Source of the DNA: a virus
IMG/VR virus record: IMGVR_UViG_3300024329_000060
Span: 1 to 23,953 of that record
Reading direction: 5' to 3' (one strand)
Length of the DNA: 23,953 bases
Positions 5,655-23,953 of this stretch are shown here, piece after piece. A program made the translations under genes and the position numbers. The number at the start of each line of letters is the position of its first letter. Within the stretch, counting starts at the first letter, position 1. The notes under the pieces are model-generated. The model was given only the letters and a program-made list of their open reading frames with translations, did not search any database and was not told where the DNA came from.

Positions 5655-6952
5655 TGGCAGTAACAGTTTCAGACCAAGATAGATCATTACTTAGACTAAT
5701 CGCCGACGGTGAAGCAGTTAGATCAAATCCGTATTGTAGTGTATGGCCCGGTTCTGTAGAACGTTCACTCACTTCTATGACATTGTCTCAAGTTGAAGAT
5801 TATCAAAAGAATAGAATTGCCGCAGGAAGAAAATCTAGTGCTGTAGGAAAATATCAATTTATAAAATCTACTCTAAAAGAATGTGTTGGATACTTAGGAT
5901 GTGATCCTCTAAGAACAGTGTTTTCACCAGACGTGCAAGACGCACTTATTATTAAAAGATTAGAAAAGTTTAGAAGATATAACGAATGGAAAAGCGGAGC
6001 ATTAGATAGCGGAAAATTTATGATTTTTTTATCTGCTGAATTCGCAAGTATGCCTGTACCTTACGATATTGCAGCAGGAAGTGTATACAAAGGATTGCCA
6101 AAAAGAAATTTAAAAAAAGGACAAAGCTTTTATGCAGGTGATGGGCTTAATAAAGCAAATCATAATCCTGATAGTGTATATCAAGCACTTGAAGATATTC
6201 GTAACGGCGGCACCGGAGAAATAGTCACTATAGACGTTTCTACAACCGGCGCAAATAGAGCCATGCCTGCAAGTGGAATTGGTGAAAAAGCTCAAGTTGA
6301 AAAAGCATCTGCAGGATCGGCCACAGGTGCCTATCGAGGTACAAGGGCAGGTTCTGCACCTTTACCTGCAACAACACTTCCAAACCCAGAAAATCCTTAC
6401 ATTTATTATCAAATAGATCCATTAGATGATAGATATGACTTTCGTACTGGAGAAAAAGTTAAAGATATATTAATTCATGGCATTAGTGCAGCAGCATCTT
6501 CTCCTGTAGAAGTAGTAACTGGGGGCGAAACAAACAGCACAACAAATGCAGGGGTTATTGCACCAGTGCCACCAGCGCCAGATCCAGAATCAGCAAATCC
6601 AACAGGTCAAGAAGTATTACCAGACTTAGTACCAAAAGAAGTCCCAAGTCCGTTGCCATTAGACGATCTGCCTAACGTTGACAAAATTGCTCCTGGTCTT
6701 CCGTATCCAGACGATATAATAGATGATGCGCTAAACAGTATTAAAAAATTATTTCCTGAGGATCCTGGAGACTGTGTAAATACACCAGTTACCCGCACTA
6801 GTGGCTTTCAAGATGCTTTCGATGATGCCACAGGTGCTTACAGTGACGTTGTGGGTGGATTGAAAGATGCTGCTGAAACTGCCTTAACTGAAACTAAAAC
6901 TGCTATTACTAATACTGCAAAACAATGGATAAAGACTAATGGCCCGCAATGA
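5654..6952 (+). CDS. Baseplate-associated muramidase (lambda R-type lysozyme domain with Pro-rich tail)
   Basis: The protein has 432 residues. Residues about 8-185 resemble the phage lambda R lytic transglycosylase: LLRLIADGEAVRSNPY places a likely catalytic Glu at E20, and KSSAVGKYQFIKSTL (about 60-74) matches lambda's KSTGAGRYQLL. A segment on QDALIIKRLE follows, as in lambda's QDAVALQQIKE. The enzyme would cleave the N-acetylmuramic acid to N-acetylglucosamine bond. From about residue 230 the chain becomes Ala/Thr/Pro-rich (PVPPAPDPESANP, VPKEVPSPLPLDDLP), then ends in a helix of about 50 residues. There is no signal peptide or membrane segment, and the gene lies inside the baseplate block, so it is more likely a virion enzyme than a free endolysin. 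AAGGA (5641-5645) precedes the start. Its end overlaps gp5 by 14 bases, suggesting coupled synthesis with the spike. Confidence 0.8.
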   Translation: MAVTVSDQDRSLLRLIADGEAVRSNPYCSVWPGSVERSLTSMTLSQVEDYQKNRIAAGRKSSAVGKYQFIKSTLKECVGYLGCDPLRTVFSPDVQDALIIKRLEKFRRYNEWKSGALDSGKFMIFLSAEFASMPVPYDIAAGSVYKGLPKRNLKKGQSFYAGDGLNKANHNPDSVYQALEDIRNGGTGEIVTIDVSTTGANRAMPASGIGEKAQVEKASAGSATGAYRGTRAGSAPLPATTLPNPENPYIYYQIDPLDDRYDFRTGEKVKDILIHGISAAASSPVEVVTGGETNSTTNAGVIAPVPPAPDPESANPTGQEVLPDLVPKEVPSPLPLDDLPNVDKIAPGLPYPDDIIDDALNSIKKLFPEDPGDCVNTPVTRTSGFQDAFDDATGAYSDVVGGLKDAAETALTETKTAITNTAKQWIKTNGPQ

Positions 6953-9677
6953 ACCACCTAGAAAAGGAACTACTTATACAAGGTCAACGCGAGAGTTGCC
7001 ACCTATTAAAGCGGGTGTACCTTACGAAGCTGTTATAGTAAACAACTTAGATGTAAACAGTATGGGTACTTTAGAGGTAGAGCTTTTAAATTATACCTCT
7101 GCAGGAAACTTACCAGAAAAAAGTGGACAACTCGAAACAGTAAAATATCTTAGTCCTTTTTACGGAGTTACACCAGGCAACGGATTAACCCAAAATGACG
7201 GTTATGAATATACTCAAAAAAGTTATGGAATTTGGGCAGTACCACCTGATGTTGGTACTAAAGTACTAGTTATTTTTGCAGAAGGTAATAAAAACTTTGG
7301 TTACTGGATAGGGTGTATTCAAGATGATTACATGAACTTTATGTTGCCTGATGGCCGCGCCGCCACCACCCTAACAACGGATATTACTCCTGAACATCTT
7401 AAAGGTAGCAAACTTCCTGTTGGTGAATATAACAAAATGGTTGAAACTGGCGAAAAAGTTGATCCTACCTTATTTAATAAACCTTATAATAAAGATTTTG
7501 CCCAGATATTAGAAATACAGGGTCTACTACAAGACGAAGCCCGAGGAACTACAACATCAAGTGCTAGACGTGATTTCCCTAGCATGGTGTTCGGATGGAG
7601 TACACCTGGACCTAAGGATAAAAGAACTAAATCTCCAAAATTTGAAATTGGTCCTGACGGTAAAAAAGTAGAACTGCCATACAACAGACTAGGCGGTTCT
7701 AGCATAGTTATGGATGACGGTGATGAACGTTTTGTAAGAGAAACCCATGCAGAAGACGGTCCGCCCAAATACGTTAATAAAGGTGCTAATTTCCCCGGCG
7801 GCGACGAAACAATACTTCAAAACGAATTATTTAGAATAAGAACTAGAACCGGGCATCAAATACTTCTACATAATTCAGAAGATTTGATTTATATTTCTAA
7901 CAGTAGAGGTACTGCTTGGATAGAGATGTCTAGTGATGGTAAGATTGATATACATGCACAAGATAGTATAAGCGTAATGAGCAATCAAGATATTAATTTT
8001 ACTGCTGAAAGAGATTTTAATATCGATGCCGGTCGTAACATAAACATGAGAGCACAGGCAAGATATAGTGATGGTCAAAAAACAATGGACGGCCTAGACT
8101 GTGGTAGAATACAAATAGAATCAAAATATGATACAAATATTTTAGTAGGCGACGAATATAAAAGAAATGTTCTTGGAACAAGTCAAGTTAAAATAGATGC
8201 TGATAGTTTTATTACAGTTGCAGCCAATCAACAAACTACAGCTGGTACTATTTATGACACATCTAAAGGCGGATTCCATCAAAAATCTGCACATACTTTC
8301 TATAGAGAAAGTGGAAGCAATATTAACGACTTATCAGCAGGGGTCTACTTAAACAAAGGCTCAGAAATAAATTTACACTCAACAGGAAATACAAAAATAC
8401 TTTCGGTTGGAAATCATGAAACTGTTACTCAAGGTGAACACTTACTAAAAGTAATCGGTGCAAGTACTGTGCAGGCAGATACTCAACACTACGAAGCTGT
8501 TAATGGAATCAATATGTTAGGCGGAACTGCAATTGCAGGAGATGCAGCTAAAATTTCTTGGAATACGCAAAAATCTGTTGCAGGAACTGAGGCTTCGACT
8601 GCACTAAGTGCAACACCTGCAACTTCAGCAAAGCCTGCAGAACCAATTATACCATTACCGCAAATTGTGTTACCGTATATATTTGCAGGAGCACAAGATA
8701 CTGTGCCGTATGAAAGTATACTCACTAGAGCTCCACAACACGAGCCGTGGCAGCACCACGAAAATTTAAATCCGCAAGCATTTAAACCAGAACAAACTGA
8801 TAGGGAATCGTCAGGACAACTATCACCAGCAGATAGAATACTTACACCAGACACATTTACAAAGTCTAAATCTAATGTCCAACAAAGTTCGCAGATTTTA
8901 GGTTCTAGCGGGAATGACAATTATGGAACACACGGTGATTCTCAAATTGTATTAGGTGATGTTGAACAACCAGAAAATGTCCCCGGAGCAGATGAAATTA
9001 GATCACTAGCAAACTTCACACTTGATAAAGAAAGATCAACAGATAACTGGGCTAACAGATTCTTTATAGGTGACGGACCGTTGGGCACAATAACTACTAA
9101 AAAGAGAGGCATAACAGCCGAAGTTGCAGAAGTTTGGGTTCCTAATTTCCAAGGCTTTATTGATGCTTTAGAAGATAGCGGATATGAAATTAAGGTATTA
9201 CTTGGGTATTGTAAACGTAATATCGGACGTTCTACTAGATGGAGTACTCATGCCTCGGGCGCTGCAATAGATATCAATCCACCAAATCCTGTTAAAAATA
9301 CATTTCCGAACGGATGGTATCAAAGTCGCCCAGCAAATGCGCCTATGACTGATATGCCTGAAGGCACCGGCGAGTTAGCCAAATCATTTGGTCTTGGTTG
9401 GGGCGGTGCATGGACAAGCTCAGACGATGCTATGCATTTTAGTACAGCAGCAAACGAAGGCGGCAATTATAGATTTGTACCAGGTATAATACCCCAAGGT
9501 CCGTCAACTGACAGTGAGATTACAGAATCAGGAGATCCTAGAGGAAAAGATTATTATATTGCTCCATCTAAAGAAATTACCGAGGCAGAAACCCAAGAAT
9601 CTCCTATAGAACCAGAAAATACAAATAATCCAGGTCCACAAAATGCTGACGGTACTGTAAATACTGGACCGCAATAA
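6939..9677 (+). CDS. 5: Baseplate central spike gp5 with C-terminal M15 peptidase domain
   Basis: The protein has 912 residues. An OB-fold region (about 27-137) ends in PPDVGTKVLVIFAEGNKNFG and YWIGC, as in gp5/VgrG-like spikes. The stretch GHQILLHNSEDLIYIS (305-320) with WIEMSSDGKIDIHAQDSISV (327-346) leads into short beta repeats forming the needle (about 327-530). The T4 lysozyme domain normally found between these parts is absent. After a Pro/Ala/Ser linker, residues about 690-845 form a peptidase M15 (VanY/L-Ala-D-Glu type) domain: S-T-H771-A-S-G-A-A-I-D778, then GWGGAW and D830-A-M-H833-F. Zinc ligands H771, D778 and H833 with D830 as the base keep the spacing known in M15C enzymes. The spike would pierce the outer membrane and cut wall peptides. 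The ATG overlaps the muramidase end by 14 bases, and no strong ribosome-binding site is visible, which fits translational coupling. Confidence 0.92.
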   Translation: MARNEPPRKGTTYTRSTRELPPIKAGVPYEAVIVNNLDVNSMGTLEVELLNYTSAGNLPEKSGQLETVKYLSPFYGVTPGNGLTQNDGYEYTQKSYGIWAVPPDVGTKVLVIFAEGNKNFGYWIGCIQDDYMNFMLPDGRAATTLTTDITPEHLKGSKLPVGEYNKMVETGEKVDPTLFNKPYNKDFAQILEIQGLLQDEARGTTTSSARRDFPSMVFGWSTPGPKDKRTKSPKFEIGPDGKKVELPYNRLGGSSIVMDDGDERFVRETHAEDGPPKYVNKGANFPGGDETILQNELFRIRTRTGHQILLHNSEDLIYISNSRGTAWIEMSSDGKIDIHAQDSISVMSNQDINFTAERDFNIDAGRNINMRAQARYSDGQKTMDGLDCGRIQIESKYDTNILVGDEYKRNVLGTSQVKIDADSFITVAANQQTTAGTIYDTSKGGFHQKSAHTFYRESGSNINDLSAGVYLNKGSEINLHSTGNTKILSVGNHETVTQGEHLLKVIGASTVQADTQHYEAVNGINMLGGTAIAGDAAKISWNTQKSVAGTEASTALSATPATSAKPAEPIIPLPQIVLPYIFAGAQDTVPYESILTRAPQHEPWQHHENLNPQAFKPEQTDRESSGQLSPADRILTPDTFTKSKSNVQQSSQILGSSGNDNYGTHGDSQIVLGDVEQPENVPGADEIRSLANFTLDKERSTDNWANRFFIGDGPLGTITTKKRGITAEVAEVWVPNFQGFIDALEDSGYEIKVLLGYCKRNIGRSTRWSTHASGAAIDINPPNPVKNTFPNGWYQSRPANAPMTDMPEGTGELAKSFGLGWGGAWTSSDDAMHFSTAANEGGNYRFVPGIIPQGPSTDSEITESGDPRGKDYYIAPSKEITEAETQESPIEPENTNNPGPQNADGTVNTGPQ

Positions 9678-13100: not shown

Positions 13101-13790
13101 CCGCAAAGTAATGATGAATTATTTAGAAATTATGGTGGTGATATATCAAAAATAAAATCTATCACAGACGAAGTAATATATCATCCTGTAAAATATAAAA
13201 TATTGTTCGGCAAAAAAGCAAAAGAAGATCTACAAGTGATATTCAAGATAGTTAGAAATAAAGATGTAGTTGTAAATGACAACGAACTTAAAGCAGACGT
13301 AGTAAACAGTATAGATAGATTTTTTGCAATTGAAAATTGGGATTTTGGAGAAACATTTTATTTCCAAGAACTTGCTGCTTACATAATAAATCAACTTACA
13401 CCTAAATTAGTAAGTATTGTTGTAGTCCCTAGACAAGGTAGTCAAAGTTTTGGAAGTTTGTTTGAAATAAGATCTGAACCTGATGAAATTTTCATTAGCG
13501 GAGCAAATGTATCAGACATAGAGATTATTCAAGAGCATACTGCATCTCAATTACAAGCAGCAGGAAATGTATTAACAAACTTTAATAATGCAACTTCTCA
13601 AATTTCTAGCGCATCTGCTGTATCAAATATTTCTAGTTCAACAAGTTCAACAAGTACAAATAGTAACAGTCCAAGCAGTTTAGGTAGCTCAAGCAGCTCA
13701 AGCAGCTCGGGTAGTTCAAGTAGCTCGAGCAGTTCGAGCAGTTCAGGTAGTTCAAGCAGTGGTTCTTCAGGCGGAGGTTATAGTTACTAA
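10188..13790 (+). CDS. 6: Baseplate wedge protein gp6 (extended, 1200 aa)
   Basis: The N-terminal part (EDWKRIYQGF, YLALIDMIAFLGQNLSFRVD, NARENFLETAERRESVLRLA) and the central NAPASYYTQNRLITGEDYN (about 418-436) are hallmarks of gp6/gpJ wedge proteins. T4 gp6 has about 660 residues; this one is nearly twice that length, with extra beta-rich material after about residue 480. Dimers of gp6 form the inner ring that ties the six wedges together and reshapes on sheath contraction. Residues 816-827 form a canonical EF-hand-type loop (DLDNDGVIDDPD). The last 65 residues are mostly Ser with some Gly, encoded in part by a 9-bp tandem repeat, and end GGGYSY. The gene has its own late promoter and an AAGGA site (10176-10180). 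Its stop overlaps the next start (TAATG). Confidence 0.93.
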   Translation: MSSSDRQTRLLVAEDWKRIYQGFRNADFQSYDFDNLRRSMINYLRQNYPEDFNDYIESSEYLALIDMIAFLGQNLSFRVDLNARENFLETAERRESVLRLARMLSYNPKRNQAANGLMKITTVKTTETLFDSAGLNLSNNVIKWNDTSNTNYVEQFTKILNAALPVNNSIGNPLKNANIEGIQTQKYRFNATNTDTAIFPFTKNIEGNSVRFEVVSADISNTTIKEESPLPGTSPAFLYRDDGQGAGSSNSGFFMHVRQGALQTGNFSVKNPVPNQVVSIDASNINNTDVWLYNVDTNGFETTSWTQLTSTEGNNIIYNSLFNQVRNIFSVESRIGDRINLVFSDGVFGNLPAGNFKIYYRTSINKSLAVTPGQIGNINIAIPYQSKSGSQETITLGLRLPFSITNGTGAETNAEIKANAPASYYTQNRLITGEDYNIGPLSVSQEIIKTKSVNRISSGISRYLDIKDPSGKYSTTKLFADDGVIYKELYETKQDFNFSSQSDIEGIIVNTLQNVIRSSGVKNYYISQFSDISVLDLGASWNSYQSTTNSNLGTLEDIDGNKIKVGAFTANNLKTAKRGTMLKFTPPAGFHFMKNNEHGLMQGAADHPNAVEYKWTQISNVVDDGTSIDAETNTGGITLTDFIPTGAILTEIVPTFSTFFSNDLKTQIIDQAFAYKDFALRYDRSESVWKLILAENINTISSFSLGKAGDITGQNLDTSWLLYFKTDGEKYTLTTRNLRYIFESEDEIRFFFDSADKIYDPKTGKIIRDTIKILDINTKPQTNIPFTTSFDWNISGAYRDKEGYVDSRKIQIEFFDLDNDGVIDDPDLFNQIVEPNTDPQSKLIFLKRYVTTDGVEEYRYYDNSDNTIQVKTNEKAIGAYSQYDNPTQIFYLFEEKIFKQLNANLNNLTVITDYKAYTGRNNLRFSYRHVADSNYRIDPAVSNIIDTYLLTKNYDTNIRQFLNGNLKSLPLPQSNDELFRNYGGDISKIKSITDEVIYHPVKYKILFGKKAKEDLQVIFKIVRNKDVVVNDNELKADVVNSIDRFFAIENWDFGETFYFQELAAYIINQLTPKLVSIVVVPRQGSQSFGSLFEIRSEPDEIFISGANVSDIEIIQEHTASQLQAAGNVLTNFNNATSQISSASAVSNISSSTSSTSTNSNSPSSLGSSSSSSSSGSSSSSSSSSSSGSSSSGSSGGGYSY
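12633..12668 (+). other. EF-hand-type calcium-binding loop within gp6
   Basis: Residues 816-827 read D-L-D-N-D-G-V-I-D-D-P-D. Acidic residues at loop positions 1, 3, 5, 9 and 12, Gly at 6 and Ile at 8 match the canonical 12-residue calcium loop, except for Asp instead of Glu at 12. It is flanked by beta-like rather than clearly helical sequence, so a dockerin-like or isolated loop is more likely than a full EF hand. Calcium binding is inferred from the motif. Confidence 0.6.
13686..13757 (+). repeat. 6: Eight tandem 9-bp units coding Ser-Ser-Ser/Gly in the gp6 C-terminus
   Basis: Eight consecutive in-frame 9-base units fit the pattern AGY-TCR-RGY: two AGCTCAAGC copies, then AGCTCGGGT, AGTTCAAGT, AGCTCGAGC, AGTTCGAGC, AGTTCAGGT and AGTTCAAGC. 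They encode Ser-Ser-(Ser/Gly). Two related units, AGTTCAACA, occur upstream at 13635-13652. The third-base changes preserve Ser, so the tract looks expanded by slippage or recombination and then maintained at protein level. Confidence 0.88.
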
Positions 13791-16700
13791 TGGCATATGA
13801 TGATAATCAAAATGAGAGTGCCCTTCCTACACCTAATAATAATAGTAAAAAATCTATAGATTTTTTACCAAAGTTTTTTAGGACGGAAGCAAATAGAAAA
13901 TTCCTTCAAGGAACATTAGATCAACTAATTTCAGACGGAACTGCGGAAAAGGTTGACGGCTATGTTGGTAGAAAATTTACAAAGGGATATAGTTTATCAG
14001 ATAACTATATTCCAGAAATTAATAAACAAAGAGAAGACTATCAATTAGAACCTTCTGTAACGCTAAGAGATAATTTAGAAAATATTGACTTTGTAAAAGA
14101 TTACAAAGATTATATAAACACGTTAAAATATTTTGGATCAGATGTTTCTAATCATGATAAACTTAACACAGTAAATTCATACAGTTGGAATCCACACATT
14201 GATTTTGATAAATTTACCAATTTCCGCGAATATTATTGGCTACCAACTGGTCCGTTAAGTGTTCCTTTAAAAGGACAAGCAAGAGAAATTACTAGCACTT
14301 ACGCTGTTACACTCGAAGATCAAGGCGATAATATTGCATATGTATTTAATGATGGATTCACAAGAAATCCAACACTCAAGTTATACAGAGGACAAACTTA
14401 TCGTTTTGATATAGATACCCCGGGTCATCCAATTGCATTTTCTATAAGTAGAACATTTATACCCGGGCTTGCATTACTTGTAGCAGGAAAAGAAGGAGTA
14501 AGATCGTCTGGATTATTTGATGCAGAGCTATACGGCAATGAATATGATATCGGCGATTTTGTAGTTACTCCTGATGCCGGAAGTGTAAGTTTCGAAGCAG
14601 ACGAAAATGTATCTACTTTATATAATGACGGTATTAGTAAGTTTAACGATGCCGGCGACGAAATTGCAGTAGTATACATTGAAAAAGGCACAATAGAATT
14701 TACTATACCGACAAATGCTCCTAACAGACTATTTTATATTAGTCAAAATGATATCAATACAAGTGGACAAATTAGAATCTATGATGTAGAAGAAAATACG
14801 TTTTTAAACATTAAAAATGATATCTTAGGAAAAAAATATTACACTAGTTCAAACGGTATAGAATTAACTAATGGATTAAAAGTAGAATTTCCAGGCACAG
14901 TTATACCTGAAAAATATAGTACAGGTAAATGGTATGTAGAAGGCGTTGGTTCAGCAATAACACTAATTTCTGAATCTGATCTTACTATTCCGTCGACATA
15001 CACAGATAATATACAAACACCGTTTGATACTGAGGCATTTGATACAATGCCATTCTCTACAGCTAATAATTTTCCGCTACAAAAAGATTACTTGCTTATT
15101 AATAGAGCTGCACAAGACAAAAATCCATGGTCAAGAAATAACAGATGGTTCCATAAACAAGTTGTATTACAGAGCTTTGAGTATAATGGCTTACCTGAAA
15201 ACTTAGATGACAATTTTAGAGCAAAGCGTCCTATAATAGAATTTGAAGCAGGACTAAAATTATTTAATAATGGAACTTTTGCAAAAGCAGACGTAGACCT
15301 TGTAGACGATTTTACTACAGATGTCTTTAGTACTATTCAAGGACAACTAGGTTATATTATCGACTCAGTAGAAATTGCTGAAGGTATGAGAATTTTGTTC
15401 ACTAAAGACAACGATGTATTAGTGAGCGGAAAAATATTTGAGGTTAATTTTGTAACTATCGGTCAAGATAGAATTATAAATCTTATTGAAGTCGCAGATT
15501 CACTCCCGCTTGATTTAGAAACTGTATTTGTTAAAAATGGAAACAAATACTCAGGAAAAACACTACATTATCATAATTTAAATTGGACACTAGCACAAGA
15601 CAAAACATCATTAAATCAAGCACCGCTGTTTGATTTATGTTGCCCTGAAGGCACTGCATACAGTGATAATTCGGTATTTGAAAGTTCTAATTTTTATGGT
15701 ACTAAGATATTTTCATATAAACTAGGAGAAGGAATAACCGATACTGAATTAGGATTTCCTTTAGCATATAGAAATATCAGCAATGCCGGCGATATATTAT
15801 TTGAATTTAACTTATTAACCGATAATTTTTCTTACCAAGAAAATGATGAATTGATATCTATAAATGTTGCTACAGCTAATCTTAGGAAGTATAAAAATAG
15901 AGATACATTTGAATATGTAAATGGATGGAATTCAACACCGTCTAGATTTAAACAATATGTTATAAAAAATATTGTTGTTGATAGCAATAATACAAATAAT
16001 TTTAAAATAGATGTATACAATAAACCGCATCTTTTAGAAGATTTAAAAGTACACGTATATGTCAATAATACGTTACAATTTAAAAATAAAAATTATATTA
16101 TTACAAAAAGCCGAAATTCAGTTATTATCAACTTTGTACAGGACTTGGCAGTTGATGATATATTAGAAATCAAAACACATAGTCAAGAAGCAAAAAATCA
16201 AAACGGATATTACGAACTTCCAATTTCTTTAGAAAGAAATCCGTTAAACGAAGATGTAACAGAATTTACCTTAGGAGAAGTATATGATCATGTAGACAGC
16301 ATGATTGAAGATATACAAACTTTTGAAGGAGTTTATCCGGGCAACAGTAATCTTAGAGACGCAGGCAAAATTAATCAGTTTGGAAAAAGATTTGTTAAGC
16401 ACGAAGCTGGTTTAGTTAATGCAATTTATCAGATAACAAATAAGAAATATAATCTACTTAAAGCAGTAGAATATTCTAATAAAGAATATGCAAAATTCAA
16501 AAAAATATTCATTGATACAGCTACTAATTTAGGTTATGACGGAACAACTAATAAGCATGTTGATAGAATTTTAAAAGATATTAATAACGATAAATCTAAG
16601 TCGCAACCATTTTACTTTAGTGACATGTTAGGGTATGGTAATGGTAATCGTATAGAATATAATGTAATCGACAAAGAAATTAATATTTTTCCTCTTACCC

Positions 16701-19700
16701 AAAGTTTTAAATTATCTGACTTTACGCCACAGTCGTTAATTGCATACATTAACGGAACAATGTTAGTACATGGAAGAGATTATAATTTTAATACAGACGG
16801 GTTTATTGAAATTACTGCTGACAAGGAAAATGGCGATACTATAGAGATATACGAATATAACAGTACTGATGGATCTTTTATTGCACCAACACCGTCTAAA
16901 TTAGGACTTTACCCTACTTGGAACCCTGAAATTGTTTTAGATGATACCGGAAGCGAGAGCGTAGATATACTGATTTCAGGACCGTTTAAGGTATACGGCG
17001 AAGTTGACACAGGTGAAAAGAAAAATCTTCATGGGTGGTTTCATCCTGTATTTACGTCTAAAAATTCTGCACAGCAAAGTGATATTGCAGAAGGCGGCAC
17101 AGGTAACGTAAACAGTATTTGGTTTAAAGGGTTAACAACGCAATTTTATGTGCCTAAAACAAACAGCACACTTGCAGGAAATGATAATTTAAATATTGAA
17201 TTATACCCAATTGGTATACCTGTTATTAAAGGACATGACGGCAGTCAAGTTGCTTGTTACAAAGATTTTAGAGACGGTTTATTATTAGATTTAGAAAAGC
17301 GTATCTTCAATAATATTAAAATAAACTATGATGATAATGAATTTGATTTGTATAATTTTACAGGCGGCGCATTTAGAGGATTTAAAAACAACATAGACTC
17401 TATTAATAGTATATTACTGACTGATTTTATAACCTGGCAATCATCGTTAAAAGGTGACTATTCTGACAACAGTTTTTATGATAGGAATAACGGATTTACA
17501 TTCAATTATAAAAGTTCAAATGGAATAAATGGATCGCAGATACCTGGTTTTTGGAGAGGCATATATAAACAAGCATTTGATACAGACCAACCACATTCTC
17601 ATCCATGGGAAATGTTAGGCCTCCAAAAGAAACCTACGTGGTGGAATACAGTTTATGGGCCAGCACCTTATACAAGCAATAACTTATTATTATGGGAAGA
17701 TCTTGAAAAAGGTAAAATTGCAGATCCTAATAATACAAGAATTGATAAAAGATTTGCACGACCTGGCTTAACAACTTTTATTCCAGTTGATAAAATTGGA
17801 AAATTAGTTCCGCCAGTAAAGACTAACTATATCGAAGGGTTCATCCAGCGGTTTGCAGATTCAGCATTTGAATTTGGCGATTATTCCCCAATAGAAAGTT
17901 CATGGCGTAAAAGTTCAGAATATCCATTCTCTATCTTAAAATCTATGTTACTATTAAATCCTGCTGAAACTATAGGCAAGGGCTTTGATTTATCTAGATC
18001 TACAAAAAACTTAGCAGGCCAGTATGTTTACAAAGATACGCAAAACAGTATAAAAAATACAGATATTATTTTCCCTAATACCTACGCAGATGATCAAAGA
18101 AATATTACTTGTGGTTTAATTAATTTTACATATAATCTTGTAGCAAGCGACATACTAAAAGTATATACAGATTATCAAAACGAAATTCAAAATTTACAAG
18201 TAAATTTATCATTTAGGTTAGGAAGTTTTTCAGATAAAAATAAACTTAATTTTGTTTTAGAAAGTAAAACTCCTAACAGAGATATTGGATCTAGTGGCAT
18301 TTTCATCCCCCAAGAAAATTATAACTTAGTGTACAATGTAAGTTCACCTATAGATAATTTTATATATAGCGGCGTAATTATAGAAAAAACATCTAGCGGA
18401 TTTAAGATAAGCGGATATAACCAAAAAAATTCTTACTTTAATTATTATTCACCTTTGTTTGGATCAACAAATTTTATTGTGACTGTAGGAGGTATAAGTG
18501 AAGAATATTCAAATTGGAGTGGTCTAACACCGTATAAAAAAGATCAAATTGTTTTTCAATTAAACACATATTACAGAGTAACACAAGATTTTACAAGTAG
18601 TGAACTATTTGATACAGAATTTTTAGCTAAGTTGCCTGCTTTACCTTCTATTGGCGGTCGAGCAGCTGAATTTTATAAAACTTTTGATACTATCAATACA
18701 AAAAAACTTGCATATGGAACTATTCTTGGAAATATACAGGAAGTTGTTAGCTTTTTATTAGGATATGGAAAATATTTAGAAACCCAAGGATTTACTTTTG
18801 ATGATGTTACCGATGAAGTTGTAAATGACTGGTCGTCTGTTACAAAAGAATTTATGTTTTGGACTACACAAGGATGGTCAAACGGAACAGTTATAAGTGT
18901 TAGCCCTAGTGCAAACCAATTAGTATTCCAACAAGACTTTGCCGTAGTAGATGATGTATTTGACAGTTTCTATGATACATCAATAGTTTCTAGCAATGGC
19001 CAATTATTGGATAGAAATTTTAATAGTATTCTACGAGATCAAAATAATTTTGGCATTGTAATTAAAGATACGGACCTCGGACTATACGGTGCTGCATTAC
19101 CAATTGTTCAAAAAGAACATGTTGTTGTTTTTGATAATAATACAATTTTTAATGATGTGATATATCATCCTGCATCTGGTTATAGACAAGAAAGAATTAA
19201 ATTAAACGGTTATAAAGCTGCTGAATGGAACGGCAGTTTAAATATACCTGGATTTATTTACGATAATGCTGTTGTCAAAGAATTTGAAAATTATCAAGAT
19301 TATAAAATAGGTGATTTAATTAAGTATAAAGAATATTATTATGTTGCAAAACAAAATGTTGTTGGCAGTGCAACTCTTGACTATAATCAATGGTATTTGT
19401 TAAATTCGAAACCAGTACCTGATTTAGTGAGTAATTTTGATTACAGAGTTGCACAATTTAATGATTTCTATGAAGTAAACACTGCTAGTTTTGATGATAC
19501 GTTACATGACCTTTCTGCTAGATTAATTGGCTTCCAGAAAAGAAACTATCTAAGTAACTTAATAGTAGATGATGTAAGTCAATTAAAATTCTACAAAGGG
19601 TTTATTCAAGAAAAGGGAACAAAGAATTCTCTAAGTAAACTTTTTGAGCCACTAAGTGCTCAAGGAGAAGAAAGTCTAGAATTTTTTGAAGAATGGGCTG

Positions 19701-22700
19701 TACGAAGTGGGGTGTACGGTGCTTCTGAAAAAGTAAAACAAATAGAAATACCACTGACTGATACTAAGATGATCGAAAGCCCGCAACCGGTCCTATTTAC
19801 AGATAATTTGCCAGCAGACAATTTTGATAACATATATAGAGTTTTGCCATCAGATCTTTTAGACAAACCGTTAGATTATACTAGTAATGTATTTCCTAGA
19901 TTACAGGACACAGCTGAATTTATTAAATCTTCTGGTTATGTTGATGAAAAGGACATCGATTTTGAAGCGGCAAGCGTAGACGATTTAGCTTTAGGAAACG
20001 TTAATGTATTTAAGTTAGGCGGATACTTACATTTAACTAATCAAGATAATAACGATTGGACAGTATATCAACATGTCGAAACAGGGTTAAATGCTACACA
20101 GTTGACAGAAGCAGATATATTAGATAGTCAAGGTAGATTAATTTTTGAATTACAATTAGATACTTGGGTAGGAGATAGTCTACAAATTGGAGAAATGATT
20201 GCTGTTCGAGGAGCAGATGAATATAGCTTTAACGGATTTTATAAAATTATCGATATAAGTCTAAATAAAATAGCTATCAAGATTCCACTTAGCAATGACA
20301 TAAATGGTTTTATAAATGAAAGCTTAATAGTTACAAAATTACGTAAAGTAAGAATTCAAAATGCTAGCGAAGCAAATACAACAGTAGATCAGAATATATA
20401 TGAAAACCAGAAGTTATGGATAGACAATATAGATTCAAATTGGCAAGTTATACAGAATCAAAAAGTATACTCTTTTTTACATCAGTATGATAATCCTAGC
20501 GACTGGGACAGCACACAACAAAAATTTACAGATTCAATGGCAGCAACAGACGATAATCGAAATGTTTTTGTATCGTCTGCAGGCGATGACAGCGGCAAGG
20601 TCTTTATATACAAAAGGTCAAATGAAAATGCAAACTTGCAATTACAACAAGTTTTATCATTTGACGAAATATCAGATTGGAAACCATTTACGGAATATAG
20701 AAACGGTGCAAGAATAAGATACGATGACAAATATTATCTACTTAATTTGACATTACAGCCCGATGAACGCTATACTAGTGAAGAAACTTTTAATAGTTTT
20801 AAATGGACAGAAATTGATTCTCCTAATGGCTATATGGATTACTTCGATCAATATGGAGCAAGCATTGATGTAAGCAGCGACGGTGAATATTTAGTAATCG
20901 GAGTTCCAAATGCATCTGGCGTAAAAACAAAATATCTAGGCGACTTTAATCCTGATGTAGAATATTTAAAACATGATGTTGTAAAATTTAGAGAAACTTT
21001 TTGGCAAGCAAATTTAACTGTGTTCCCTCAGATAGGAACACAGCCATTTTCTACTTTTGATAGCTATATCGATTTAACATCAAGAGATGATACAGATAGT
21101 ACTAATTTACAGCTCTTAGTTTCGGGTAAATTTGGATTACCAACAGGAAATATAGACCATATATTAGTACGTGCTCCTTTAGACATGTATATAGGAACAA
21201 AAGGTCAAATTGGTGATCAACCTGGCGACAAAGTTAGTTTAGCATGGAACTCAGTAAGCTATGCATATCCTACACTCGATGAATATTTGCCTTTTGATAA
21301 CCAGATATCAGAAATTACACCCGAATTTTTAAATCAAGAACACGAAATTATAGAAAAAATAGATTCGATTCTTTTTGTAGAAACATATGTTAGTTTACCC
21401 ACAGTAGGTCAAATCGTAGAAACTGATACAGGATCGGGAGAAGTTTTTTACGTAGCAAGTTATAGAGATAGTGCTGTAATATATTTGAAAAACATTAATG
21501 GTATTATAGATATTACTGGAGAAATATTTGATCTTAACAATGGTAACTTTATAGGTTTTTATTCTCAAGAATCAACTTATGCAACTACGCCATCTGTAGG
21601 AGGATTTTGGTACATCAACACAGCTGAGTTTGATCAACAAGGAAATCTAATATCTGGTTTCACTTATGCAAACAATGGCAGATACCTAGATATAGGTAGG
21701 GGATTAGTGTATGCAGATACTAGACCTAGCAGCAATGACGATGTAACTAGACCTTTTGTATATTATAATATACAAAGCACAGTAAGTGATATAGGTAATT
21801 TTGTTCTTAATAAAAATCGTGTTAGTTTTCTAACAAATTTAAGTTATAGAGGTGATATTGCCGACGAAGAAAGCAACTTATGGGCAGTACGAGTCGGAAA
21901 ATCTTATAGTGATTTATTAGATAACATAGGAGCATTAGTAGGTCCGGGCAATGAAAATAACAAAACTTTAAAATTAAAGTTTAATGAAACACAAGCTTTT
22001 ATAGATGATGTTAATTCAAAAGGTTATAACATTAATGAATTAAATAATGAAAATAAACTGTATGATATTTGGGACGGGTATATAGATTTTGAATTTACAG
22101 AATTTGATTTTGTCGGTGAGCCATTTGAACCTGTTGTAGGAGATGTTATACAAGATGTACAATTTCCTAGAGACGGCCAAGGCGGACTTGCTCTTACTAG
22201 TAAAAGTACTAGTACAGCTCAAATTGTTAGCTACAGAAAACAATTTAATTCAGTCCGAGTTTATTTAAAAGTACTTTCCGGTTCATGGACACAGCTAAAC
22301 AACATTGGTAAATTCCAAATACGAAGATTAGCAAATGAAGCAATCAGAGGCTCCGGCGATGTCGATCGTGTAATGGGTACTGTAGAGGATGTAGACAACA
22401 GTATAATACTAGGAACTGACAAAGTAGGAAAATTAATAGTATTTGAAAAAAATAGTCAAGACCCTACTGATGTGTTTATAGCAGTAGACAATGCAGAGAT
22501 TTTAGAATCAGAATATTACTTCTTTGATGAAACTATAGAAGGCGGCATTAATAGATTATCTAATGCACCTAACAGTCTAAATAAAGATTGGTCTCAAGTG
22601 TATAATATCCCAGCAAATATTAGAGGAACTTCTAGCGGATTGTCTAACGAAGGTGCTGTAATTATCTATAGACGACAGCCTAATGGCCTATATGAATTTG

Positions 22701-23953
22701 ACTACGTTTTAACAAGTCAGTATAAGCAAAATGAAAGAAATTTTGGCGATCAAGTTAAAATTAGAAAATTTGGGAATACCTACCATCTATTAGTTGGATC
22801 TAAAGGAGATTTAAATTCTTCTACAAGATTTGATCCAGGTAGTATAGAAGTTTTTACTCATGGCCCGACCGATAATGATAGATTTAAAGGGGAGTACCAG
22901 TCTACTGTATACCAACGAGGTGATATTGTTCTATATAAAGACAACTTTTATGTTGCAAATAAAGATACAGACGAAGGTATACAATTAAATATTCTAGATT
23001 CTGTTGTTTGGAACAATATTAGTTGGAAGTATGGTGTCGACGAAAACTATAGAGGAAACTGGGATAACACATATGGTTATGCAATAGGATCTATAGTCTT
23101 ATATAATAATATGTTCTATGCAGCTAAAACAAATATTGCAGCAGGAACAGAGTTTACTGAAAATCTATGGGAACAAATTTCTAGTAGTATAGATTATCTA
23201 GGATACTTGCCTAACTTAACAGGTAATAATTTATTAGGTGAAGATGTTTTTGACCCAAATGAAAATATAATTGAATTTAGTAAAAGCTTTGATGTAAGTA
23301 AAAACGGAGAAATATTAGTTGTTACTGCACTGCTAGAATCTACAGATAGTACGTCAAATAAAAAAATAGCAATTTATAGGAAAGAAGATAGTAAGTATAA
23401 ACTTTACGAAACTATTTCAGCGCCACTAAGTGGGTTTGAATTACAGGATCATGATTTAGATAAATTTGAAACAGATGTAGACGGCAATTGGGTCTATAGG
23501 GATACAGCTGGCGAAATTGCTACTCCGTCAACGGGTACAAGAACGTTAAATCCAAATGCTACTCCTGATGTTTTTGTAGATAAAACAAACTGGGCACATA
23601 AAGTAGCTATTAGTCCTGATGGTACACGGATAGTTATTAGTGTACTAAATGATAATACTAGAAAATATAAACAAGGACTAGTTTTAGTATACACTCAAAA
23701 TAATGGATCTTTTACATCACAAGAACCACAATTTTTATATAGCCCACAAGGGGAAATTGCAGAAAACTTTGGCTACGAAATTGGGTTTACTGATGAAACT
23801 TTATTAATTACAAGCTTAAATGGCGATCAAAAGATCCCAACTAGATTCGACACATATGAAAATAGACTAACGGGTTATTTACTAGATACAAATTCAGAAG
23901 AAAGAACCGAAACTACATTCGACCTAGGATTTACCGAATTTAGAAATGTTGGC
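13790..23953 (+). CDS. Giant virion structural protein in the gp7 position, partial (at least 3388 codons)
   Basis: The frame opens at ATG 13790, overlapping the gp6 stop by one base, and stays open to the last base of the window. A GGAGG motif (13773-13777) inside the Gly codons of gp6 is the likely ribosome-binding site, though 12 bases away is long. T4 gp7, expected here by synteny, has only 1032 residues. The N-terminal region includes a split cupredoxin-like domain (about 193-321). Middle parts contain two related beta segments (VYVNNTLQ near 756 and AYINGTML near 985), a helical stretch (about 815-925) and aromatic-rich segments such as HSHPWEMLGLQKKPTWWN. From about residue 1576, six short CBM5/12-like aromatic modules appear, and from about 2248 FG-GAP/propeller-like repeats (VSSDGEYLVIGVPNASG, AISPDGTRIVISV). 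No signal peptide or transmembrane segment was seen. A large baseplate-peripheral or host-recognition protein is inferred; no established name is claimed. Confidence 0.85.
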   Translation, partial: MAYDDNQNESALPTPNNNSKKSIDFLPKFFRTEANRKFLQGTLDQLISDGTAEKVDGYVGRKFTKGYSLSDNYIPEINKQREDYQLEPSVTLRDNLENIDFVKDYKDYINTLKYFGSDVSNHDKLNTVNSYSWNPHIDFDKFTNFREYYWLPTGPLSVPLKGQAREITSTYAVTLEDQGDNIAYVFNDGFTRNPTLKLYRGQTYRFDIDTPGHPIAFSISRTFIPGLALLVAGKEGVRSSGLFDAELYGNEYDIGDFVVTPDAGSVSFEADENVSTLYNDGISKFNDAGDEIAVVYIEKGTIEFTIPTNAPNRLFYISQNDINTSGQIRIYDVEENTFLNIKNDILGKKYYTSSNGIELTNGLKVEFPGTVIPEKYSTGKWYVEGVGSAITLISESDLTIPSTYTDNIQTPFDTEAFDTMPFSTANNFPLQKDYLLINRAAQDKNPWSRNNRWFHKQVVLQSFEYNGLPENLDDNFRAKRPIIEFEAGLKLFNNGTFAKADVDLVDDFTTDVFSTIQGQLGYIIDSVEIAEGMRILFTKDNDVLVSGKIFEVNFVTIGQDRIINLIEVADSLPLDLETVFVKNGNKYSGKTLHYHNLNWTLAQDKTSLNQAPLFDLCCPEGTAYSDNSVFESSNFYGTKIFSYKLGEGITDTELGFPLAYRNISNAGDILFEFNLLTDNFSYQENDELISINVATANLRKYKNRDTFEYVNGWNSTPSRFKQYVIKNIVVDSNNTNNFKIDVYNKPHLLEDLKVHVYVNNTLQFKNKNYIITKSRNSVIINFVQDLAVDDILEIKTHSQEAKNQNGYYELPISLERNPLNEDVTEFTLGEVYDHVDSMIEDIQTFEGVYPGNSNLRDAGKINQFGKRFVKHEAGLVNAIYQITNKKYNLLKAVEYSNKEYAKFKKIFIDTATNLGYDGTTNKHVDRILKDINNDKSKSQPFYFSDMLGYGNGNRIEYNVIDKEINIFPLTQSFKLSDFTPQSLIAYINGTMLVHGRDYNFNTDGFIEITADKENGDTIEIYEYNSTDGSFIAPTPSKLGLYPTWNPEIVLDDTGSESVDILISGPFKVYGEVDTGEKKNLHGWFHPVFTSKNSAQQSDIAEGGTGNVNSIWFKGLTTQFYVPKTNSTLAGNDNLNIELYPIGIPVIKGHDGSQVACYKDFRDGLLLDLEKRIFNNIKINYDDNEFDLYNFTGGAFRGFKNNIDSINSILLTDFITWQSSLKGDYSDNSFYDRNNGFTFNYKSSNGINGSQIPGFWRGIYKQAFDTDQPHSHPWEMLGLQKKPTWWNTVYGPAPYTSNNLLLWEDLEKGKIADPNNTRIDKRFARPGLTTFIPVDKIGKLVPPVKTNYIEGFIQRFADSAFEFGDYSPIESSWRKSSEYPFSILKSMLLLNPAETIGKGFDLSRSTKNLAGQYVYKDTQNSIKNTDIIFPNTYADDQRNITCGLINFTYNLVASDILKVYTDYQNEIQNLQVNLSFRLGSFSDKNKLNFVLESKTPNRDIGSSGIFIPQENYNLVYNVSSPIDNFIYSGVIIEKTSSGFKISGYNQKNSYFNYYSPLFGSTNFIVTVGGISEEYSNWSGLTPYKKDQIVFQLNTYYRVTQDFTSSELFDTEFLAKLPALPSIGGRAAEFYKTFDTINTKKLAYGTILGNIQEVVSFLLGYGKYLETQGFTFDDVTDEVVNDWSSVTKEFMFWTTQGWSNGTVISVSPSANQLVFQQDFAVVDDVFDSFYDTSIVSSNGQLLDRNFNSILRDQNNFGIVIKDTDLGLYGAALPIVQKEHVVVFDNNTIFNDVIYHPASGYRQERIKLNGYKAAEWNGSLNIPGFIYDNAVVKEFENYQDYKIGDLIKYKEYYYVAKQNVVGSATLDYNQWYLLNSKPVPDLVSNFDYRVAQFNDFYEVNTASFDDTLHDLSARLIGFQKRNYLSNLIVDDVSQLKFYKGFIQEKGTKNSLSKLFEPLSAQGEESLEFFEEWAVRSGVYGASEKVKQIEIPLTDTKMIESPQPVLFTDNLPADNFDNIYRVLPSDLLDKPLDYTSNVFPRLQDTAEFIKSSGYVDEKDIDFEAASVDDLALGNVNVFKLGGYLHLTNQDNNDWTVYQHVETGLNATQLTEADILDSQGRLIFELQLDTWVGDSLQIGEMIAVRGADEYSFNGFYKIIDISLNKIAIKIPLSNDINGFINESLIVTKLRKVRIQNASEANTTVDQNIYENQKLWIDNIDSNWQVIQNQKVYSFLHQYDNPSDWDSTQQKFTDSMAATDDNRNVFVSSAGDDSGKVFIYKRSNENANLQLQQVLSFDEISDWKPFTEYRNGARIRYDDKYYLLNLTLQPDERYTSEETFNSFKWTEIDSPNGYMDYFDQYGASIDVSSDGEYLVIGVPNASGVKTKYLGDFNPDVEYLKHDVVKFRETFWQANLTVFPQIGTQPFSTFDSYIDLTSRDDTDSTNLQLLVSGKFGLPTGNIDHILVRAPLDMYIGTKGQIGDQPGDKVSLAWNSVSYAYPTLDEYLPFDNQISEITPEFLNQEHEIIEKIDSILFVETYVSLPTVGQIVETDTGSGEVFYVASYRDSAVIYLKNINGIIDITGEIFDLNNGNFIGFYSQESTYATTPSVGGFWYINTAEFDQQGNLISGFTYANNGRYLDIGRGLVYADTRPSSNDDVTRPFVYYNIQSTVSDIGNFVLNKNRVSFLTNLSYRGDIADEESNLWAVRVGKSYSDLLDNIGALVGPGNENNKTLKLKFNETQAFIDDVNSKGYNINELNNENKLYDIWDGYIDFEFTEFDFVGEPFEPVVGDVIQDVQFPRDGQGGLALTSKSTSTAQIVSYRKQFNSVRVYLKVLSGSWTQLNNIGKFQIRRLANEAIRGSGDVDRVMGTVEDVDNSIILGTDKVGKLIVFEKNSQDPTDVFIAVDNAEILESEYYFFDETIEGGINRLSNAPNSLNKDWSQVYNIPANIRGTSSGLSNEGAVIIYRRQPNGLYEFDYVLTSQYKQNERNFGDQVKIRKFGNTYHLLVGSKGDLNSSTRFDPGSIEVFTHGPTDNDRFKGEYQSTVYQRGDIVLYKDNFYVANKDTDEGIQLNILDSVVWNNISWKYGVDENYRGNWDNTYGYAIGSIVLYNNMFYAAKTNIAAGTEFTENLWEQISSSIDYLGYLPNLTGNNLLGEDVFDPNENIIEFSKSFDVSKNGEILVVTALLESTDSTSNKKIAIYRKEDSKYKLYETISAPLSGFELQDHDLDKFETDVDGNWVYRDTAGEIATPSTGTRTLNPNATPDVFVDKTNWAHKVAISPDGTRIVISVLNDNTRKYKQGLVLVYTQNNGSFTSQEPQFLYSPQGEIAENFGYEIGFTDETLLITSLNGDQKIPTRFDTYENRLTGYLLDTNSEERTETTFDLGFTEFRNVG
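14366..14752 (+). other. Split cupredoxin-like domain in the giant protein
   Basis: Residues 193-217 (NPTLKLYRGQTYRFDI then DTPGHPIAF) match the first half of plastocyanin-like domains seen in many marine proteins, and residues 300-316 (GTIEFTIPTNAPNRLFY) match the second half. About 80 residues are inserted between them. In relatives the second half continues Cys-x-x-His; here it reads ISQND, so the copper-ligand Cys and His are gone while H213 remains. A structural role is more likely than copper binding. Confidence 0.5.
18515..18634 (+). other. CBM5/12-like module A in the giant protein
   Basis: Residues 1576-1615: W1576, then TPYKKDQIVFQLNTYYRVTQ with Y1582, D1585, Y1594 and Y1595. This follows the pattern W...Y-x-x-G/K-D-x-V-x-(5)-Y-Y-x-V/A of small chitin/carbohydrate-binding modules, although the usual Gly before Asp is Lys and the closing Trp is absent. 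It is the weakest copy. Confidence 0.4.
19280..19408 (+). other. CBM5/12-like module B in the giant protein
   Basis: Residues 1831-1873: YQDYKIGDLIKYKEYYYVAK with Y1838, G1841-D1842, Y1846, Y1849-Y1851, and a closing W1868 (QWYLL). The Y-x-x-G-D-x-I-x-Y-x-x-x-Y-Y-x-A-K core and terminal Trp are characteristic of the CBM5/12 fold. Confidence 0.6.
20678..20815 (+). other. CBM5/12-like module C in the giant protein
   Basis: Residues 2297-2342: W2297, FTEYRNGARIRYDDKYYLLN (Y2303, G2306, Y2311, Y2315-Y2316), and a closing W2339 (FKWTEI). It lies between two propeller-like segments. Confidence 0.58.
20939..21070 (+). other. CBM5/12-like module D in the giant protein
   Basis: Residues 2384-2427: VEYLKHDVVKFRETFWQANL with Y2392, H2395-D2396, F2400 and F2404-W2405. 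It follows directly after a propeller-like strand set (EYLVIGVPNASG), as if inserted into a loop. The closing Trp is not obvious. Confidence 0.5.
22889..23026 (+). other. CBM5/12-like module E in the giant protein
   Basis: Residues 3034-3079: VYQRGDIVLYKDNFYVANKD with Y3041, G3044-D3045, Y3049, F3053-Y3054, and a closing W3074 (VVWNNI). This is the clearest copy of the module, complete from the opening strand to the closing Trp. Confidence 0.65.
23048..23179 (+). other. CBM5/12-like module F in the giant protein
   Basis: Residues 3087-3130: W3091, TYGYAIGSIVLYNNMFYAAK with Y3097, G3100, Y3105 and F3109-Y3110, and a closing W3127 (LWEQI). It follows module E with only seven residues between the two, forming a tandem pair. 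Confidence 0.62.

Follow-up and report, generated by a model that had tools for sequence, protein, structure and literature searches.

Baseplate wedge proteins are usually viewed as rigid parts of a ring. The C-terminal tail of bacterial SSB proteins consists of a disordered linker and a conserved tip, the latter being acidic, while contingency loci are coding repeats which vary by slippage, with changes of the on/off state. For the baseplate wedge protein gp6 of phage T4, PMC3004832 describes that the domain corresponding to the one studied here forms a contact between neighbouring wedges (inter-wedge dimer). Further, PMC10666635 describes an enrichment of tight overlaps (-1 or -4) for genes which encode subunits of one complex.

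The stretch of DNA analysed here (the window), a virus record of 23,953 bases, originates from a jumbo-type myovirus, a large uncultured virus of bacteria. It harbours, in this order, a gp25 homologue, gp6 and a giant structural gene (Table 1). The window gp6 has the C-terminal domain fold and the gp25-gp6 order in common with T4 gp6 and P2 gpJ and, by homology, also the ring-forming wedge role. However, T4 gp6 ends where the C-terminal domain ends, and only the window-type gp6 continues with a linker and a tip. As in contingency loci, the repeat number in this tail differs between near-identical genomes, but the changes are in frame and alter the length instead of the on/off state. The tip differs from the acidic tip of SSB in being composed of Gly and aromatic residues, and in that its codons double as a ribosome-binding site. 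Nevertheless, the layout is similar to that of the SSB tail, in which a fixed tip is carried by a compositionally biased disordered linker (cf. PMC12143593), without any sequence relation. The -1 nt TAATG overlap between gp6 and the giant gene resembles that of coupled overlapping subunit genes, which is common within one complex (PMC10666635), and by analogy this overlap type would fit gp6 and the giant protein as partners. The pair differs from such genes in that the codons which contain the Shine-Dalgarno (SD) sequence, 12 nt off, encode a conserved peptide tip. Among the papers listed in the literature searches (open-licence PMC papers) there was none on this tail, and it is not mentioned in the excerpt of PMC7824862.

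Table 1. Positions of gp6, of the parts of its C-terminus and of the following giant gene in the window.
Feature	Position	Strand	Basis
gp6-like baseplate wedge protein, 1200 aa	10188..13790	+	ORF; phrog_10646; C-terminal domain fold
Conserved junction past the folded domain, residues 1127-1142	13566..13613	+	alignment of relatives; predicted disordered
Variable disordered (predicted) Ser/Thr/Gly/Asn linker, residues 1143-1194	13614..13769	+	composition and length in 225/226 relatives (L027 left out); pLDDT < 50
AGTTCAACA repeat, 2.8 copies	13635..13659	+	TRF; exact copies at 13635 and 13644
Eight 9-bp units AGY-TCR-RGY	13686..13757	+	pattern scan; TRF 13686-13759
Conserved C-terminal tip GGGYSY, residues 1195-1200	13770..13787	+	Tyr end in 184/226 relatives, Phe in 3
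GGAGG, putative SD of the giant gene within the tip codons	13773..13777	+	sequence; 12 nt upstream of the giant ATG
TAATG, gp6 stop overlapping the giant gene start	13788..13792	+	sequence; TAATG in 181/226
Giant virion structural protein, at least 3388 aa, open at the window end	13790..23953	+	ORF; phrog_10938

Sequence searches with gp6 revealed matches to phrog_10646, a baseplate wedge subunit (E 5.5e-296), and to phrog_219 (E 7.2e-23), while no Pfam match and, at E values up to 1, no sequence match among solved structures were obtained. The first 1200 residues of the giant protein match the virion structural protein phrog_10938 (E 1.8e-113). An AlphaFold2 model (350 residues, 72 sequences) was confident up to about residue 1120-1126 and had a pLDDT below 50 over nearly all of residues 1127-1200; the gp6 tail is predicted to be disordered, in line with the flexibility proposed in the preliminary description of this DNA. 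When the C-terminal domain was compared with known structures, the 30 best rows were contractile-tail baseplate proteins (Z 6.5-9.7, unrelated rows at most 4.8). T4 gp6 (5iv5_A) was aligned with a Z of 8.8 over 138 residues, and since the folded part aligns up to T4 residue 658, T4 gp6 is without a counterpart of the tail. Residues of about 864-925 (model 14-75), which precede the C-terminal domain and are outside the tail, gave weak matches to collagen XV/XVIII trimerisation domains (Z up to 4.8).

Ser accounts for 41 of the last 65 residues of gp6 (1136-1200), while the maximum in 65 consecutive residues was 21 over 2000 shuffles of the protein. Thus, the described dominance of Ser in this region is beyond chance. 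The eight AGY-TCR-RGY units proved to be exact in a pattern scan, and the two related units reported upstream of them correspond to the AGTTCAACA copies. Scanning of the whole window revealed the 9-mer pattern at one further place (6289) and no occurrence on the minus strand. When the eight units are compared, all three third codon positions vary and every change is synonymous, while only one of the six non-third positions varies (Ser/Gly). This, together with the small polar composition retained among relatives, agrees with the earlier view that the tract is kept as Ser/Gly. The motif GGC-GGA-GGT, with which the tract was said to end, is indeed present at 13770-13778. However, the protein continues with Tyr-Ser-Tyr-stop, and the tip containing these residues is the most conserved section of the tail.

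The relatives comprise the hits of five IMG/VR scans and eight cultured phages, and since each IMG/VR scan gives the best 80 matches, they are a sample chosen by similarity. Out of 408 sources including the window, 393 had a complete gp6 end, and 15 were dropped because the end was not reached or the alignment anchor, window residue 1106, from which tail length was counted, was not found. The 393 ends correspond to 234 distinct ones, 226 of which (window included) are from IMG/VR. In these 226, the stretch past the folded domain is hypervariable, with 29-204 residues (median 58) following residue 1106. The counterpart of the junction, '...TGIQSS', is common to most IMG/VR relatives, and short forms stop at about this place ('...GIQSS'). 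The tails in the close population of the window (L083, L084) are identical to that of the window; L085 has 69 residues as compared to 95 in the window, and L003 has 47 residues without a Ser run. The longest end (L027, 204 residues) is a non-Ser sequence containing charged and hydrophobic residues, apparently an added domain which replaces the Ser tail.

All eight cultured ends stop 19-21 residues past the anchor, and junction, linker and tip are absent from the gp6 of RaK2, 121Q, Atu_ph07, Phosso, SCTP-2, Vibrio 2.275, Paride and XacN1, each read to the stop codon. These jumbo-phage proteins are 33-37% identical to the window gp6 over most of their length, the closest among the matches listed being Phosso, SCTP-2, Atu_ph07 and the RaK2/121Q group (33-37%), and in seven of the eight phages a giant structural gene follows gp6 (the exception is SCTP-2, as annotated). 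The C-terminal domain is common to 60 cultured records, in which the matches listed end at query positions 264-273, corresponding to window residues 1114-1123 (the query ended at residue 1125). As an extension of a known protein, the gp6 tail is real, well supported and somewhat unusual. In a wide range of phages, for which metagenome contigs are the only source here, the domain which joins wedges in T4 has acquired a hypervariable, predicted disordered stretch at its end; this stretch carries a conserved tip and is merged with the signal at which the next gene starts.

The linkers are composed of 50% Ser, 17% Thr, 12% Gly and 7% Asn (4491 residues, L027 left out). In the 177 linkers of at least five residues, 68 of 4459 residues (1.5%) are charged and 139 linkers lack any charged residue, as compared to approximately 23% charged residues in the core of the same genes. 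The low charge is reached via different codons, namely by Ser runs, Thr runs or GGGGS repeats. In 73 Ser runs, the AGY/TCN class matched at lag 3 with a frequency of 0.756 versus 0.583 expected, and because the Ser runs show this codon-class period of three, the 9-bp unit of the window is a common product. Other periods exist, for example AGY-AGY-AGY-TCN in L019 and L037. Three tails (L064, L074, L132) contain natural GGGGS-like repeats instead of Ser runs; such repeats are similar to a linker used in protein engineering. A Ser/Thr tail of this kind was detected in 35 of 72 gp6 proteins and in none of 245 other ORFs of at least 150 aa in the loci tested, which rules out that such tails are a general habit of these phages.

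The repeat number, for which variation among relatives had been predicted, differs even within near-identical groups. Tail length is different in 21 of 41 distinct pairs whose core DNAs share 98% identity or more, and in nine aligned tail sets all differences are whole codons. For example, tails are 24 nt (L353/L354) or 30 nt apart, the latter being two 15-nt units (L316/L317), or differ by 6 and 12 nt (L282/L285/L286); in single contigs, repeat length may carry assembly error. The comparison of related genomes, which had been suggested beforehand, thus excludes a constant length and sequence of the tract. On the core tree (FastTree, 214 rows), the Ser-8 runs of 41 rows need at least 28 changes and the GGGGS sequences of 12 rows at least nine.

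At the very end of gp6, Tyr is present in 184 and Phe in three of the 226 IMG/VR sequences (aromatic 187/226), and the tip is commonly G-G-x-S/G-Tyr. The gp6 stop codon (13788-13790) shares one base with the next ATG (13790-13792), and a TAATG overlap with the giant gene is found in 181 of the 226 relatives. A general effect of the TAATG context as the cause of the terminal Tyr is ruled out by 38 other TAATG junctions of the same loci, in which the end is aromatic in only two cases and A, not C, precedes TAA in 29. An aromatic end was found in 174 of the 181 coupled (TAATG) but in 13 of the 45 uncoupled gp6 genes (Fisher p 9e-22; for uncoupled gp6 versus the other junctions p 0.008), although these p values are too small because the rows are related. 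The tree provides 12 independent pairs on supported branches which differ in coupling: approximately seven agree in aromaticity, approximately five show no difference and almost none is opposite.

The last codon of the coupled genes is TAC in 153, TAT in 18, TTC in three, AAT in three, GCA in two, GTC in one and TCA in one case, while the non-synonymous transitions CAC and TGC do not occur. The occurrence of 18 TAT without any CAC or TGC points to selection on the amino acid. In uncoupled genes, terminal Tyr is encoded by four TAC and nine TAT, and core Tyr is 28% TAC; the TAC excess, being absent from both, speaks for an additional preference at the nucleotide level. When each 90% cluster was represented by a single sequence (140 in total), the result was similar (87 TAC and 8 TAT among 103 coupled genes). 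One tip pattern was present once each in four of 15 long records and in none of the other 11, and by coordinates all four places fit the gp6 end; a module shared with other genes was rejected on the basis of these records.

Since GGAGG is located at 13773-13777 and the giant ATG at 13790, the SD lies 12 nt upstream. A GGAGG-type motif at this distance is present in 139 of 218 junctions, while gp6's own starts have an SD spacing of 4-7 nt in 63 of 72 cases. Of 71 tips of the type GGY[S/G]Y, 70 use GGA for the first Gly, while the codon after it varies freely in its third base; in agreement with the earlier proposal, GGAGG thus appears to serve the giant gene as ribosome-binding site. Taken as a whole, the earlier interpretation of the serine tail is partly supported. 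An SD-like match was detected in all but 10 of 167 coupled junctions with aromatic ends. However, terminal Tyr is also retained where the SD is at 6, 8, 9 or 11 nt or not found, for example in the tips SGSGY, EGNDY and TGTTY, which have differing SDs. Three uncoupled junctions with non-aromatic ends likewise have the 12-nt spacing, which counts against a purely peptide-level view. Tails have a median of 64 residues in coupled and 40 in uncoupled genes, and gains or losses of tail, tip and coupling tend to coincide. The distance from the giant N-terminus to an LPKFFR-like motif (23-29 residues, 209/218) is nearly constant, and its correlation with tail length is only 0.18; a coupling between the two was rejected.

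The anatomy of the gp6 C-terminus, its length variation and composition, the conservation of the tip, the position of the SD and the overlap are properties of the sequences themselves; we infer from them that the tip may bind something, that the linker may set reach only and that translational coupling may occur. With about even chances of being correct, we propose that the gp6 C-terminus is a slippage-expanded disordered linker with a selected anchor tip, which doubles as the ribosome-binding site of the giant gene. The folded inter-wedge domain would end near residue 1126 and be followed by the short conserved junction; the uncharged Ser/Thr/Gly/Asn linker would drift in length by in-frame repeat slippage; the selected tip, with the consensus G-G-x-S/G-Y, should bind a fixed baseplate partner; and in the mRNA the tip would serve the overlapping giant gene as SD and start leader, coupling its translation to that of gp6. 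Possible partners are the giant wedge protein, a neighbouring gp6 or hub-side proteins; the tether to the giant protein, which was considered in the preliminary description, is a guess. Yet the tip conservation follows coupling and this holds on the tree, as expected if the tip mainly serves translation of the giant, which counts against an anchor, as do the nucleotide-level TAC preference and the existence of short forms without linker or tip. Although we consider it rather unlikely, the tip could merely result from translation of the giant gene's ribosome-binding site, with selection on coupling and not on the peptide: an ancestral gp6 ending in '...GIQS-stop' would have lost its stop codon and been extended across the SD leader as far as the TAA which overlaps the giant ATG, the linker being tolerated, slippage-prone filler. 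This is supported by compact forms which stop after '...GIQSS' or '...GITSA' and whose SD is separate, by the non-coding GGAGG leader after or at the gp6 stop in L008, L022 and L023, by the association of aromatic end and long tail with coupling, which is backed by the supported independent pairs, and by the fixed GGA and preferred TAC. It does not agree with the other TAATG junctions, in which aromatic ends are rare and A usually precedes TAA, nor with the terminal Tyr, which is kept despite an altered SD and also occurs in some uncoupled genes that possess an SD of their own (L061, L069, L389). Moreover, the SD is more distant than at gp6's own starts, and nothing would favour the retention of such a distance in a pure leader. 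An anchor and a translated leader do not exclude each other; the tip may have begun as a leader and later have been recruited as an anchor.

The proposed anchor could also be part of a baseplate tether of tunable length, in which slippage would continually reset the reach of the anchor, either across the ring of wedges or towards the giant protein translated along with gp6, the anchor codons being the ribosome-binding site of the giant. This, however, would imply that the repeat number itself is selected, and we regard it as improbable. It is still more doubtful that the tail is glycosylated or phosphorylated and acts as a platform for surface modification: about two thirds of the linker residues are Ser or Thr, but Gly/Asn-rich and GGGGS-like linkers replace the Ser runs in some relatives and the tip would be left unexplained. 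Finally, the low-complexity tract could act as a spacer at the level of RNA, keeping the mRNA ahead of the giant start unstructured. In line with this, the SD was slightly more often unpaired than in synonymous controls (0.47 versus 0.43, Wilcoxon p 0.044, 90 genes). However, no difference from these controls was seen in folding energy (mean z 0.15, standard error 0.13, p 0.17), and the constraint on the tract is on amino acids and not on one codon set. An RNA-structure role was therefore rejected, with hardly any chance left to it. Returning to the selected anchor tip on a drifting linker, if the tip binds, the evolvability of tether length could be tested in a contractile machine, and the linkers, with the GGGGS-like sequences included, would form a natural series for the study of reach and binding.

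Two minor observations were made in the vicinity. The longest perfect palindrome of the window (24 nt, 13845-13868) is located 55 nt inside the giant gene; 20 nt of it are left in L085 and it is not kept in L003. Further, two tail-region proteins in the window have a Gly-Pro-Gln C-terminus (6939-6952 and 9665-9677). The codons at 6939-6952 overlap the start of the next gene, and GPQ ends are also found at upstream TAATG junctions in L006, L019 and L045.
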